DNA of 5,046 nucleotides from Deltaproteobacteria bacterium (GTDB lineage Bacteria > Desulfobacterota_B > Binatia > UBA9968), in contig JACZQL010000169.1 of NCBI GenBank assembly GCA_022545745.1, forward strand, positions 1-5,046. Direction: 5' to 3'. Shown piece by piece: positions 1,189-5,046 of the stretch; position 1 is the stretch's first letter, and each line of letters starts with the position of its first letter. A program made the position numbers and the translations under genes. Under the pieces are notes generated by a model that saw nothing but the letters and a program-made list of their open reading frames with translations, was not told the origin of the DNA and made no database searches.

Positions 1189-2787
1189 ATGAGATGGTTT
1201 GACGTTGTTATCGTCGGCGCAGGCCACAATGGCCTGGTGACCGCAGGTTACCTTTCACGTTGGGGCCTAAAGGTGTTGGTTCTCGAGCGGCGGGAAGTCG
1301 TCGGGGGTGCGTGCGTCACCGAGGAACCGCGGCCCGGATATCGGGTCTCCACGGCGTCCTACGTGTGCAGTTTGCTGGATCCCAGAGTCATCGACGATTT
1401 GGAGCTGAAACGTTTCGGCTATGCCATTTTTCCCAAGGACCCGGCCTCCTTTACGCCTTTGCCTGACGGCCGATCCTTGCTTTTCTGGCAGGATCAGAAA
1501 AAGACCTTTGATGAAATCGCGAAGTTCTCACGGCACGACGCCGAGCAGTATCCGATCTATGAAGAGCTCATCAACCGCTTGGCGGTCTTTGCCGAATCCC
1601 AATTTAGCAGGACGCCGGCCAACTTATTCCCCACGGCCTTGGACGATTGGAAGAGAATGTTCGTCCTTGGCGGGGAACTGTTACGCCTCGGATGGGGAGA
1701 TTTAGCCAGGCTCACCAAGGTCCTACGATGGAGCGTTCAAAGTTTTTTGGATGATTATTTTCAATCCGAGGTTGTCAAGGCAACCCTTGCAACAGACGGG
1801 GTCATTGGATTCAACGGCGGACCTTCGACGCCGGGCTCGGCCTACGTGCTGTTGCACCACTGCATGGGGGAAGTGGGGGGGAAAAGAGGTCTCTGGGGTT
1901 TTGTCAAAGGCGGTATGGGCGGCATCACGCAGGCCCTCAAAAGATCTGCTGAATCGAAGGGTGTGGTTATTCAAACCGACGCATCCGTAGCAAAAATCAG
2001 GTCCCGTTCCGGCAGGGCCATGGGAGTGGTCCTCAGTAACGGCGATGAGATAGCGGCCCAGATTGTAGTATCCAATGCCGATCCCAAGCAGACCTTTCTG
2101 GAACTCATGGATAAAGGAGACCTGCCACCTTCATTTCGCGCTAGCATCGACGGAATAAAAATGGAGGGTAATGCCATGAAGGTCAACCTGATCTTGGAGG
2201 AGCTCCCGAATTTTACGGCCTATCCCGGGATTGAGGTAGGGCCTCAGCACAAAGGGACCATTCACATCTGCCCCAGCTTGACCTACATGGAGGAGGCGTG
2301 GCGAGACGCCGAGCAGGGGATCCCTTCAAATAACCCGATGCTCGAGTGTTGCATTCCAACGACCTATGACGATTCGCTGGCTCCGCCTGGTAAACACATC
2401 ATGTCAATCTTTGTCCAGTACGCACCTTACCGCCTCAAAGCGGGGACCTGGGATGACCTCCGGGACAGCTACGCGGATCGTGTCATCGAGACGTTGGGAA
2501 ATTATGCCCCCAATATCAAAGGCGCGATCATAGACCGGCAGGTCTTAACCCCGCTAGATCTCGAGAGGGAGTTCGGACTGACCCATGGCAACATCTTTCA
2601 CGGGGATATGGTCTTGAGCCAGCTCTTCTCTCTCCGCCCCTTGCGGGGGTGGGCGCAGTACCGAACGCCTGTCCATAACCTATATCTATGTGGGTCTGGA
2701 ACCCACCCCGGTGGCGGCGTGACGGGATTGCCCGGTTACAACGCGGCAAGGGAGATCATGATTGATATAAAGTCGAAAGGCGCATAG
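1189..2787 (+). CDS. FAD-dependent oxidoreductase, phytoene desaturase-like (PYROXD2 group)
   Basis: This is a complete 532-residue flavoprotein, close to the usual length of the group. The N-terminal Rossmann fold shows the dinucleotide-binding loop G10-A-G-H-N-G15, the acidic residue E33 closing the second strand (for the FAD ribose), and V38-G-G-A41, followed by VTEE. The succeeding 'ASY..SLL.P..I.DLELK..G' stretch (around 55-80) and the mid-protein 'GSAYVLLHH.MGE..G' and 'GGMGG' stretch (about 215-245) are typical of bacterial homologues of human PYROXD2 rather than true carotenoid desaturases. The C-terminal FAD clamp is NLYLCGSGTHPGGG (497-510), then TGLPGYNAA to 520. No signal peptide or membrane helix is seen, so it is probably cytosolic or peripheral. 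The start is ATG 1189 with a modest AAGGG at 1175-1179. Substrate unknown: no carotenoid genes lie nearby, so a desaturase role should not be assumed. The stop codon lies in repeat-like sequence. Confidence 0.93.
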   Translation: MRWFDVVIVGAGHNGLVTAGYLSRWGLKVLVLERREVVGGACVTEEPRPGYRVSTASYVCSLLDPRVIDDLELKRFGYAIFPKDPASFTPLPDGRSLLFWQDQKKTFDEIAKFSRHDAEQYPIYEELINRLAVFAESQFSRTPANLFPTALDDWKRMFVLGGELLRLGWGDLARLTKVLRWSVQSFLDDYFQSEVVKATLATDGVIGFNGGPSTPGSAYVLLHHCMGEVGGKRGLWGFVKGGMGGITQALKRSAESKGVVIQTDASVAKIRSRSGRAMGVVLSNGDEIAAQIVVSNADPKQTFLELMDKGDLPPSFRASIDGIKMEGNAMKVNLILEELPNFTAYPGIEVGPQHKGTIHICPSLTYMEEAWRDAEQGIPSNNPMLECCIPTTYDDSLAPPGKHIMSIFVQYAPYRLKAGTWDDLRDSYADRVIETLGNYAPNIKGAIIDRQVLTPLDLEREFGLTHGNIFHGDMVLSQLFSLRPLRGWAQYRTPVHNLYLCGSGTHPGGGVTGLPGYNAAREIMIDIKSKGA

Positions 2788-2810
2788 GGCATAGCGACGA
2801 AGACAGCGAA

Positions 2811-2838
2811 GCGCATACGCAGAGCGCAAAGTGCGAGA
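2811..2838 (+). repeat. Heptamer block, CGCAGAG/CGCAAAG family, first copy
   Basis: Four consecutive 7-bp units begin at 2811, 2818, 2825 and 2832; the clearest are CGCAGAG and CGCAAAG. The 14 bases at 2818-2831 recur exactly, inverted, at 4325-4338 on the far side of the first MFS gene. Confidence 0.7.
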
Positions 2839-2840
2839 AA

Positions 2841-2875
2841 CAGTGGGCAGAGGGCAGTTAGCAGTTTGCAGCAAA
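2841..2875 (+). repeat. Heptamer block, CAGNNNG family
   Basis: Four in-phase units, CAGTGGG, CAGAGGG, CAGTTAG and CAGTTTG, start at 2841, 2848, 2855 and 2862. A decayed fifth, CAGCAAA, starts at 2869. The invariant CAG and final G with variable middle bases suggest old tandem duplication followed by drift. Confidence 0.75.
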
Positions 2876-2880
2876 TGCGG

Positions 2881-2909
2881 GTCCACAGACTACAGGACTA
2901 CGGACAACC
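2881..2909 (+). repeat. Heptamer block, GACTACG-like family
   Basis: Units read as TCCACAG (2882), ACTACAG (2889), GACTACG (2896) and GACAACC (2903). The shared core is roughly GACNACR with a strict 7-bp step. It is unrelated in sequence to the neighbouring CAG and GCGCA blocks. Confidence 0.6.
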
Positions 2910-2922
2910 AGGAAACAGAACG

Positions 2923-2943
2923 TAGAGCGCAAAGCGCAGAGCG
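2923..2943 (+). repeat. Heptamer block, CAAAGCG/CAGAGCG family, second copy
   Basis: Three exact-length units, TAGAGCG, CAAAGCG and CAGAGCG, start at 2923, 2930 and 2937. This is the same family as 2811-2838, separated from it by the two unrelated blocks, and it reappears on the opposite strand at 4323-4350. Confidence 0.7.
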
Positions 2944-2953
2944 TGAGGAAGAA

Positions 2954-2981
2954 ACAAGTAACGAATTGAAAGCAACAAGTA
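2954..2981 (+). repeat. ACAAGTA pair at 21-bp spacing
   Basis: ACAAGTA occurs at 2954-2960 and again at 2975-2981, a distance of three heptamer steps, with two diverged units between. It continues the 7-bp rhythm of the spacer in an AT-rich family. With only two exact copies it is weaker than the other blocks. Confidence 0.4.
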
Positions 2982-2984
2982 AAT

Positions 2985-3004
2985 GGTAAAAAGGGTTCTT
3001 TACC
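2985..3004 (+). promoter_or_regulatory. Small inverted repeat ahead of the MFS gene
   Basis: GGTAAA (2985-2990) pairs with TTTACC (2999-3004) around an 8-base loop, ending 15 bp before the ribosome binding site of the downstream MFS gene. No T-run follows, so it is not a typical intrinsic terminator. It could be a leader hairpin or an operator, but a six-bp stem may also be chance. Confidence 0.2.
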
Positions 3005-3032: not shown

Positions 3033-4283
3033 GTGAGTAGTACGGAGCACGGGGGAGGTATATACTCACGACAGAATTTTCTTTCCATCTATGTCCCGGC
3101 CATGACCCTTGCCGTAGGCACCGGGATCGTGGTCCCAGCCATTCCGGTATACGCCAAGTCCTTCGGAGTCTCGTTTGAAGTTGCCTCTCTTGTAATCATC
3201 GTCCATCAACTGGGCGTTGCCCTCTCGAGCTATCCGGTCGGCCTGCTGATCGACCGCATCGGGCGCCGGAAGATCTTGCTCACCGGACCCGTGCTCCTTG
3301 CAATCTCAGGGTTCCTGATCACCATAGCGCAATCGTTCCCGGAGTTATTGGTCTATCGGTTCATCGGGGGTGTTGGAGAACAGATGTGGCAGATCAGCCG
3401 GCTGGCGATGATTGCCGACACAGGGGCGGATCGGGAACGAGGCCGCCAGATCACGACCATGAACGCAATGCAAAATGCCGGACGACTCTTCTCGCCCGCC
3501 CTTGGGGGGCTGCTCGCCGGATTCTGGGACATCCGTGCGCCGTTCATTGCCCATGCACTGCTGTCCCTGATGGCCATCATCCCAAGTTTCAAGCTGGTGC
3601 AAGAGACGGCACCCCATTTGGCCAAGGGTGCCGGTCGCGAACGGACCCAGACCGACGCGACACCGGCAGCGAGCTTTCGGACGTTGCTCACCTACCAGGT
3701 AGTCATCTTTTTTGTTGCCCAGTTTTTCGCGTCGCTGACACGGGCTCCGATTTTCTCCGGCCAGCTGAACCTCTACGGGGCTTATGTATACAACCTATCA
3801 CCTCAGACCATCGGAATCCTCGCAACCTCCGTGACCGCCATTGCCATCCCCATCACCATCGCCGCGGGTTACATCATGGACCGCTACGGGAGAAAGGCCA
3901 CTCTGGTGCCTGGATTCTCATTGCTCGCGGTGGCTCTTGCCTTCCTCAGTTTTACGGATTACGCGGGCTCGTCATTCGGGATGTTCGTTCTGGCCTATGT
4001 CTGTGTCTATACCAGCAACGGAATTACCGGGGGCAACATGCAGACGCTGGGGTCGGACATCGCGCCCGAGAAGGCCCGAGGGAAGTTCTATGGTATCTGG
4101 CAAACCATAGGAACCATCGGGGCTCCGGGCAGCACCTCTATGTTCGCGGTGCTGTCTGGCAGTTTGGGTTACTGGTCGGCCTTTGTGTTCCTCGGTATGA
4201 TGGCGGGTTGCACGGCACTAATTCTCGGCACGCAGGTGCGGGAGCGGTGGCGGGAGAAGCCGGCAACTACCGTGACCTCGTAA
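3033..4283 (+). CDS. MFS transporter, 12-helix drug:H+ antiporter-like
   Basis: This is a complete 416-residue integral inner-membrane protein of the major facilitator superfamily, normal in length for a 12-helix member. After a short polar N-terminus, helix 1 begins near residue 17. Motif A in the helix 2-3 loop is intact: G70, D74, R75, G77, R78, R79. Its counterpart in the second half is G279, D283, R284, G286, R287, K288. The helix 5 region, NAGRLFSPALGGLLAG (148-163), resembles the glycine/proline-rich motif C of drug:H+ antiporters. A polar central loop spans about 191-215. PEKARG (345-350) in the helix 10-11 loop is another common MFS feature. These signs indicate proton-coupled efflux or uptake, but the substrate cannot be read from the sequence. 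It starts at GTG 3033. The gene follows the oxidoreductase on the same strand after a repeat-filled 245-bp gap, so it may have its own promoter. Confidence 0.93.
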   Translation: MSSTEHGGGIYSRQNFLSIYVPAMTLAVGTGIVVPAIPVYAKSFGVSFEVASLVIIVHQLGVALSSYPVGLLIDRIGRRKILLTGPVLLAISGFLITIAQSFPELLVYRFIGGVGEQMWQISRLAMIADTGADRERGRQITTMNAMQNAGRLFSPALGGLLAGFWDIRAPFIAHALLSLMAIIPSFKLVQETAPHLAKGAGRERTQTDATPAASFRTLLTYQVVIFFVAQFFASLTRAPIFSGQLNLYGAYVYNLSPQTIGILATSVTAIAIPITIAAGYIMDRYGRKATLVPGFSLLAVALAFLSFTDYAGSSFGMFVLAYVCVYTSNGITGGNMQTLGSDIAPEKARGKFYGIWQTIGTIGAPGSTSMFAVLSGSLGYWSAFVFLGMMAGCTALILGTQVRERWREKPATTVTS

Positions 4284-4322
4284 AAGAATTCAAGAAAGTT
4301 TTTCGCGCCTAATTGCTTTTGA

Positions 4323-4350
4323 CGCTTTGCGCTCTGCGCTTAGCGCTTTG
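4323..4350 (-). repeat. Heptamer array, four units, inverted relative to the upstream spacer
   Basis: On the plus strand four perfect-length units stand head to tail: CGCTTTG (4323), CGCTCTG (4330), CGCTTAG (4337) and CGCTTTG (4344). On the reverse strand they are CAAAGCG, CTAAGCG, CAGAGCG and CAAAGCG, the same family as 2811-2838 and 2923-2943. The array lies between the convergent ends of the two MFS genes. Read in the direction of the minus-strand gene it has the same orientation as the array behind the oxidoreductase. Confidence 0.8.
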
Positions 4351-4361
4351 CTGTTCCTCCC

Positions 4362-4391
4362 TCTGCGTAAATCTGCGTGAGTCTGCGGTTA
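4362..4391. repeat. Tandem repeat of 10-bp period, three units
   Basis: TCTGCGTAAA, TCTGCGTGAG and TCTGCGGTTA follow each other at 4362, 4372 and 4382, sharing TCTGCG at the start of each unit. CTGCGGTTA, from the third unit, recurs exactly at 4423-4431, inside the end of the minus-strand MFS gene. No terminator hairpin with a T-run could be made out in the 135-bp convergent spacer. Confidence 0.7.
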
Positions 4392-4418
4392 TTTTCTTAA
4401 AGAGCTATTTGTCTACAT

Positions 4419-5046
4419 TTAGCTGCGGTTAATAACTTTTGAGGTTTTCTGCCGTATCATGGGTTTTCGCACGTCCTGCACCAGGTTCATCACCAGCATC
4501 GCCGCAAGGAAACTGGTGGACATTACGGTAAAAGCCACCTTGAAACTGTAGGTCTGGAACAAATAGCCGGTCACGATGGTCCAGACGGGAGCCGATAAAA
4601 AGCCCAGGAAAAAATAGAGGCTGAAGGCTGCGTCTTGGTCCTCCTCGGACACTGAATCGGCCACCATGGCTAGAGTGAGACTCCCACGGGAATGAGTGAC
4701 CATGCCAAAGAAGGTGACATTGAGCAAAATCAACAACGCGTTAGGCACCTGCCAGGCCAGTCCGAGGGCACCCAGCCCCGAGAGCAGGAGCGAGGCCTGA
4801 GTCACCCGCTTGCGGGAGCCGCGGTCAGAAAGCCACCCGAGAAGGAGAGGTCCAGCAAGGCCGCCCAGCTGGAATAGGAACAGGACCAGAATCGTGAATT
4901 TGATATCAAAACCGAAATCCCGCTCCAGGTACAGGGGCAGATAAGTCGGCATCACCTCACCCCGACCCGCACCGCCCACGAGAAACACGAGGGCGATCAG
5001 CATGAAGTTGCGGTTACGCAGAAGCCGTAGGTAGCTTGCCATGCTG
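4419..5046 (-). CDS. MFS transporter, C-terminal half (partial, N-terminus outside window)
   Basis: The reverse strand is open from the right edge to the TAA at 4421-4419, about 209 codons. Counting from the Met at 5042, the protein has some six hydrophobic segments: about 14-34, 50-70, 83-98, 101-118, 137-160 and 167-188. YLRLLRNRNF before the first helix is typical of the stretch that leads from the central cytoplasmic loop into helix 7 of MFS proteins. The helix 8-9 loop carries a motif-A copy: G69, D73, R74, R77, K78. MVADSVSEEDQDAAF (126-140) matches the helix 10-11 loop. This is therefore the second half of a normal 12-helix transporter, with helices 1-6 beyond the window. The Met at 5042 is probably internal; no ribosome binding site can be assessed with only four bases left. 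It differs clearly from the neighbouring plus-strand MFS protein, so they are not a recent duplication. Substrate unknown. Its last codons overlap a repeat-like CTGCGGTTA. Confidence 0.88.
   Translation of the reverse strand, partial: SMASYLRLLRNRNFMLIALVFLVGGAGRGEVMPTYLPLYLERDFGFDIKFTILVLFLFQLGGLAGPLLLGWLSDRGSRKRVTQASLLLSGLGALGLAWQVPNALLILLNVTFFGMVTHSRGSLTLAMVADSVSEEDQDAAFSLYFFLGFLSAPVWTIVTGYLFQTYSFKVAFTVMSTSFLAAMLVMNLVQDVRKPMIRQKTSKVINRS

Follow-up and report, generated by a model that had tools for sequence, protein, structure and literature searches.

At positions 2780-2988 of contig JACZQL010000169.1 from a Deltaproteobacteria bacterium, of which a stretch of 5,046 nucleotides (the window) was analysed, the spacer between two co-directional forward-strand genes, one for a phytoene-dehydrogenase-like FAD oxidoreductase and one for an MFS transporter, is composed of short blocks of degenerate 7-bp units. 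We give slightly better than an even chance to the reading that this spacer is patched together from dispersed intergenic repeats, now decayed, with hairpin arms made of degenerate 7-bp and sometimes 8-bp units, which were inserted ready-made and then changed by 7-bp steps. In relatives, we observed dispersal of such elements, their whole insertion with corresponding empty sites, similar ends around unrelated cores, 7-bp insertions and deletions (indels) and, by reading of the sequences, nesting. The same origin for the window's own blocks is extrapolated from these relatives.

Periodicity and repeat blocks of the window spacer

The heptamer step that an earlier note on this DNA had seen in the spacer is real. 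Over its 209 bp the identity between bases seven positions apart (lag 7) is 0.475, as against a mean of 0.289 (standard deviation 0.031) in dinucleotide shuffles, and the shuffle check proposed in that note came out in its favour, with none of 1000 shuffles reaching this value either at lag 7 or at any lag from 3 to 15. Identity is also elevated at lags 14 (0.39) and 21 (0.35), and is not elevated at lags 3-6 and 8. The three coding regions tested in the window have no comparable lag-7 excess; the largest coding value, that of the MFS gene (0.279 against 0.258), was reached by 53 of 1000 shuffles. Tandem Repeats Finder (TRF) at a score of at least 30 did not report the spacer.

The same note had counted at least four repeat families, which holds. 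The list of six named blocks (Table 1) overcounts them, because the first, second and fifth all belong to the GCGCANA family, and four families remain. Within the spacer GCGCANA flanks two other families on both sides, and the GACTACN and ACAAGTA families comprise just two or three units each. The stop codon of the oxidoreductase gene (2785-2787) falls within the first repeat block. Since four homologues of this enzyme (P0001, P0002 and P0003, at 97, 92 and 87% identity, and P0005) all have 532 amino acids and a similar C-terminus, the array starts at the gene end.

Dispersed hairpin elements in relatives

The relatives were reached from the closest locus (L001, 71% protein identity) through its phylum to genome G147 and its family, comprising 12 deltaproteobacterial genomes; the family search and the order search around G147 each took in 12 genomes. 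A dimer pattern of the GCGCANA family, CGCARAGCGCARAG, has 81 copies in G147 and its reversed control none. At least one copy occurs in 28 of 148 genomes of the phylum of G001, the genome with the best oxidoreductase match, and the reversed control in 5, although a single match per genome carries little weight given a chance estimate of about 0.1 per genome. There was no enrichment in the phylum of G007, where 28 of 149 genomes match and 31 show the reversed control. In that phylum the reversed control has 73 copies in G567 and 91 in G658, and another 7-bp family is therefore probably abundant in these two genomes. Strong lag-7 arrays with different units were also seen in Blastocatellia and Chloracidobacterium metagenome-assembled genomes (MAGs), at L003:1-170 and in L007 near 1, 2121, 6721 and 15191.

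The lag-7 excess in spacers of the relatives is large. A 230-kb sample of G147 (20 contigs picked regardless of arrays) yielded 70 regions at lag 7, as against 14 at lag 8 and 4 at lag 9, and lags 3-6 and 10-11 gave none. In 400 kb of G304, 84 arrays were at lag 7 and 13 at lag 8; lag 6 gave 3, and lags 5 and 9 one each. Smaller samples gave 7 lag-7 arrays in G305, 15 in G306 and 4 in G311; none was found in 120 kb combined of G026, G068 and G065, which lie outside the family. Most of the length of 77 of the 84 G304 arrays is outside open reading frames (ORFs) of at least 150 amino acids. For one neighbouring gene of G147, the product has homologues named Deltaproteobacteria, Desulfobacterales and Syntrophales.

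Many of these arrays are parts of dispersed elements. For a 241-bp stretch of G147 (L062:9148-9388), more than 20 additional copies, whole or partial, were found in the same genome and others across the family, and 12 copies from G147, G304, G305, G306 and G308 can be aligned across the element and not across the flanks. The order is an end, a CGCAAAG array, a GTAAACG array, a loop, an inverted GTAAACG array, an inverted CGCATAG-type array and the other end, and copies vary by 7- or 14-bp indels within the arrays. In relatives the elements measure about 170-360 bp, and three of them had DNA-fold z values of -4.3 (L062:9148-9388), -7.1 and -2.6. An inverted mate within 150 bp, at a score of at least 15, accompanies 29 of 84 G304 arrays; after swapping of flanks the number is 9 of 84. 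Compared by eye in the relatives, neither end is an inverted copy of the other, and the terminal inverted repeats of a classical DDE-transposase miniature inverted-repeat transposable element are thus lacking.

Arrays also recur together with their surroundings. Another locus of the sample is matched by 48 of 84 arrays in G304 and by 162 of 173 in G147, a sample that takes in 17 stretches chosen for carrying arrays, and the match reaches at least 20 bp past the array in 27 and 129 cases, respectively. When the position was shifted by 1500 bp as a control, a match was found for 0 of 84 (G304) and 27 of 173 (G147). Moreover, the G147 element is missing from a relative at four orthologous sites (Table 1). 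An IS200/IS605-type non-autonomous element would leave no target-site duplication, have asymmetric ends with subterminal hairpins and insert beside a fixed short target; no target-site duplication was seen by eye at these four sites of the relatives. At three of the four filled sites the element follows an AG dinucleotide, and the three corresponding empty sites have AG at the equivalent position; AG also comes before 12 of the 18 left ends whose match starts at base 1.

The site at L062:9150 has a conserved promoter-like stretch common to nine genomes. Beside it, G147, G309 and G308 carry three different 7-bp families (best 35-base lag-7 identity 0.71-0.74), G303, G304, G306 and G307 share one 8-bp family (0.69-0.80 at lag 8), G305, with 0.63 at both lags, is a borderline case, and G311 is without an array. 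By eye, one spacer, around L080:14570, keeps a single family in G147, G305 and G303 despite turnover of units.

Similar ends enclose unrelated interiors. A search of the family's fetched loci with end profiles gave 42 left and 40 right ends, of which 23 were paired within 700 bp. By reading, 14 of the paired interiors are CGCAAAG-type cores, a number that includes 6 loci (between L154 and L160) selected for that core. Five are GGAGTAAT octamer cores, and there is one each of GGTGTCA, CAAATNN, a related AAATTCC and a GGTACAAGG core. An octamer-core copy used as query had matches in 11 of the 12 family genomes. In G303, the L047:15570 (C2) site has a right end whose interior differs; it was not scored as a core swap because no left end paired with it. 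Ends and cores were then compared in 22 loci, 16 chosen for both ends or a full copy and 6 from the end-profile search, which yielded 25 end-to-end pairs with L266 counted twice. Median identity was 0.75 for the ends, as expected from how they were chosen, and 0.44 for the cores, on a level with shuffled cores (0.43). Single linkage grouped the cores into 10 octamer, 7 CAAATNN, 2 GGTGTCA and six singletons, among which L266 (twice) and L268 contain GGTGTCA units too.

As read from the printed sequences, stems are nested inside stems among these elements. In all four GGTGTCA loci of this comparison the core opens with what is the outer left arm in CAAATNN cores, and in two of the four it closes with their outer right arm; the GGTGTCA copy at L060, from the end-profile search, is without that arm. 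The CAAATNN cores, in turn, are placed within the first units of the octamer stem. What appears to be a single element, with ends GGATATTTCATGAAT, stands by eye at the same site in opposite orientation in L145 (G303) and L146 (G309), in the spacer after an acyl-CoA ligase gene and adjoining heptamer or octamer arrays.

Differences between units are weakly concentrated by phase (0.58 in G147 and 0.61 in G304, with 0.50 expected). The idea of two adjacent free positions per unit was set aside as weak, the top two phases being adjacent in 45 of 95, 16 of 51 and 6 of 16 arrays where one third is expected. Mismatches between arms are concentrated by phase as well (0.47 against 0.34 expected, 87 arm pairs, some counted from both arms), which follows from the variable positions of the arrays and was not counted as evidence.

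The window is tied to the dispersed CGCAAAG-type element (L062:9148-9388) by a second, reverse-strand array at 4323-4351. Its reverse complement equals the left arm of the element over 29 bases, order of unit variants included, at no fewer than 8 places in G147. At up to 2 mismatches the 29-mer has 32 copies in G147 (8 exact among the matches listed). A further 5 genomes have a single copy each, at 1-2 mismatches, so that 6 of 395 genomes carry it and the reversed control is found in none. Under independent draws at G304 frequencies, this unit order has a chance of roughly 7e-4 (44 units); with smaller samples the value is 3e-4 (11 units) and 0 (9 units). Lag 7 over the entire spacer 4284-4421 is not significant (reached by 151 of 1000 shuffles). 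The viral contigs searched lacked the exact 29-mer, and in a plasmid search neither the window spacer nor the octamer-core element was matched.

The first spacer has ties of its own. Of the 12 aligned element copies, 4 have a CGCAAAG array that closes with the same nine bases, AGCGTGAGG, as the block ending at 2948. The window's five GCGCANA-type units have on average 25 tandem occurrences in G147 and 14 in G304, where the means over the full set of 1172 unit types are 1.7 and 1.1; G147, however, had been picked for its GCGCANA abundance.

Weighing the explanations

According to the reading that we favour, new families would come as ready-made blocks through insertion of small non-autonomous hairpin elements, incoming elements would land next to or within older ones, and units would then be gained or lost inside each array by 7-bp steps. 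Mobilisation may proceed through single-stranded hairpin DNA, given that target duplications were not seen, and the unit length would be set by slippage within the arms and not by a counting enzyme. The earlier note had offered two processes, one that counts seven bases and repeated insertion of ready-made arrays. The first, as worded there, is not supported in the relatives, where an octamer family lies between similar ends, four of nine orthologous spacers hold octamers, and lag-8 arrays are present in both large samples. An octamer core between similar ends means that the unit length is not strictly seven, and nothing strictly counts seven. The second is supported in the relatives by arrays with unrelated flanks, by empty sites and by families that differ per spacer and between similar ends, and would extend to the window by extrapolation.

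Several observations weigh against extending this reading to the window. The G147 family is not known to be closely related to the organism of the window. A search of 395 genomes of G001's phylum for a relative carrying the same MFS gene found none; having no positive control, it shows little. Ends of the dispersed elements were not detected in the window, neither 2780-2988 (z -1.2) nor the second spacer (z +1.1) folds into a hairpin, and the window's 11 non-GCGCANA unit types are not enriched in the relatives (means of 1.8 in G147 and 1.2 in G304, against the same overall 1.7 and 1.1), so that three of its four families are unlinked to the elements by counts. In the relatives themselves, the excess of inverted mates is nearly gone at a score of 20 (8 against 5 of 84). 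The Y1 transposase (PF01797) is present in 11 of the 12 family genomes and was not found in G147, which has many element copies and a fragmented assembly; it was dropped as candidate mover. Given the missing ends, the missing hairpin and the three unenriched families, the window can represent no more than a remnant or a cousin of the elements seen in the relatives.

It is possible, but rather unlikely, that local slippage alone made the arrays, each family having grown in place through 7-bp slips during a replication that favours slips of 7 nt, with no insertion of blocks. The 7- and 14-bp indels between copies of one element, the L080:14570 spacer with its single family and the lack of enrichment of three window families in element-bearing relatives all agree with slippage. 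Heptamer over-representation across many bacteria and its proposed tie to the DNA segment held by the polymerase are discussed, with reference to earlier work, in the available text of PMC4692102. However, identical arrays with the same unit order stand at unrelated loci and in other genomes of the G147 family, matches run past the array borders, and whole elements are absent at orthologous sites. Ordinary 7-bp steps do take part in the relatives, beside whole insertion.

We regard as improbable that the arrays are functional, their units being selected binding sites of a DNA- or RNA-binding regulator, IHF/HU-like or translational. In the parts available of both papers, PMC2700814 proposes such a role for the heptanucleotide and octanucleotide elements of Geobacter metallireducens and PMC4679880 for TAACTGA repeats, and arrays lie between co-directional genes in the window and, by reading, in L226 and L228. 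Nevertheless, the nine orthologous spacers differ in family, and therefore no single family is required beside the promoter-like stretch; the phase concentration of unit differences is weak as well. Chance periodicity or an assembly artefact deserves practically no credence, as no shuffle reached the signal and the relatives' arrays recur across several assemblies, among them three single-contig records (G304, G305 and G306).

Because cores differ inside while outer stems match, the reading of these sequences suggests that hairpin tips may be exchanged. More tentatively, and with doubt prevailing, a modular mobile hairpin can be proposed, in which a conserved end pair would spread while unrelated periodic stems take the place of its tip, one level after another; one chassis would then disperse many heptamer and octamer families, and spacers such as that of the window would be their fossil record.

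Genomic setting and known repeat systems

The coordinates of the window features and of the empty sites are collected in Table 1. The oxidoreductase has matches in 19 of 148 genomes of G001's class, the best in G001 (71%) and the next at 51%. Two oxidoreductase homologues are adjacent in G279, G281, G282, G284, G286, G287, G294 and G296, among others. In a partial MFS gene at 4422-5042 identity is in excess at lag 6 (0.34, z 4.6) and is elevated also at lags 12, 18 and 24. At gathering score, Rfam found two tRNAs in L060 and nothing else in six sources including the window.

Table 1. Features of the window and empty sites in relatives
Feature	Position	Strand	Basis or comparison
Phytoene-dehydrogenase-like FAD oxidoreductase gene	1189-2787	+	ORF; Pfam Amino_oxidase 7.9e-15; 71% identical homologue in L001
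GCGCATA-GGGCATA block, family GCGCANA	2780-2796 (repeat units 2780-2793)	+	Sequence, lag 7
GCGCATA-CGCAGAG-CGCAAAG-TGCG block, family GCGCANA	2811-2835	+	Sequence, lag 7
GCAGNNN block	2841-2871	+	Sequence
GACTACN block, 2-3 units	2888-2905	+	Sequence
Second GCGCANA block (GCGCAAA/GCGCAGA 2927-2943), last bases AGCGTGAGG	2922-2948	+	Sequence and element alignment
Two ACAAGTA units, at 2954 and 2975 (21 bp between starts)	2954-2981	+	Sequence
MFS transporter gene	3033-4283	+	ORF; Pfam MFS_1 6.1e-54
Heptamer array, reverse complement GCAAAGCGCTAAGCGCAGAGCGCAAAGCG	4323-4351	-	TRF period 7 over 4318-4351; 29-mer search
Period-10 repeat TCTGCGTAAA adjoining the heptamer array	4362-4387		TRF
Empty site in G305	L062:9150 (G147)		G305 carries another insert close by
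Empty site in G305	L047:15570 (G147)		317 bp vs 61 bp
Empty site in G310	L080:11307 (G147)		365 bp vs 11 bp
Empty site in G305	L080:13753 (G147)		199 bp vs 6 bp

Cyanobacterial STRR heptamers are intergenic tandem heptamers, with several families in one genome. Intergenic arrays of near-identical 7-bp units are likewise found in the window and its relatives; the host is not cyanobacterial. Indeed, the impression in the earlier note that this DNA does not look cyanobacterial agrees with homology, though no phylogeny was made: the closest organism-named homologues are Deltaproteobacteria MAGs, followed at lower identity by Binatia, Nitrospinota, Blastocatellia, Chloroflexi and others. In cyanobacteria, small dispersed repeats of 21-27 nt, often embedded in tandem heptamers, were reportedly described by Elhai et al. 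in 2008. They resemble the present elements as small mobile repeats nested with heptamer arrays, whereas here the arrays themselves are the arms.

The statement in the earlier note that no mechanism had been described is only partly right, since heptamer and octamer elements (PMC2700814), mixed heptamers (PMC4679880) and hairpin REPINs (PMC3116915) are already on record in what was available of these sources. Aklujkar et al. (2009, PMC2700814) described multicopy heptanucleotide and octanucleotide elements in Geobacter metallireducens, several classes occurring as opposite-strand pairs, and read them as regulatory or regulator-binding sites. Like the elements studied here, these are deltaproteobacterial, dispersed, largely intergenic and made of 3-5 tandem units of 7 or 8 bp in opposite-strand pairs; unlike them, each class is one sequence, and the available text gives neither shared ends with exchangeable cores nor a comparison of orthologous sites. 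Mixed heptamers with 7-nt differences between strains are known from cyanobacteria and Bacteroidetes, and the TAACTGA heptamers of Beggiatoaceae, cyanobacteria and Bacteroidetes are similar in being intergenic, with several families per genome and 7-nt indels (PMC4679880). They differ in unit sequence and, in the portion of that article available, lack fixed-end hairpin elements, horizontal transfer being suggested there without a mechanism. Satellites derived from heptamers are mentioned in PMC6749651, as far as its available text goes.

REPINs are hairpin-forming mobile repeats, and REP elements are moved by RAYT transposases, according to the accessible part of PMC3116915. The elements of the relatives resemble them in being non-autonomous, intergenic, hairpin-forming and dispersed, the hairpin being seen in the three folded elements and not in the window spacers, and differ in their larger size, long arms of degenerate 7-8-mers and exchangeable cores, with no Y1 gene found in G147. 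In the open-licence literature searched, we saw no account of exchangeable heptamer cores between conserved ends.

The over-representation of heptamers in bacterial spacers has long been noted and has no accepted origin. Tip exchange, if true, would account for a length that stays near seven despite the change of sequence. Moreover, the combination of similar ends, empty sites and unrelated cores makes the puzzle of heptamer origin testable, with regard to the mover, to core replacement and to whether the unit arises before or after insertion.

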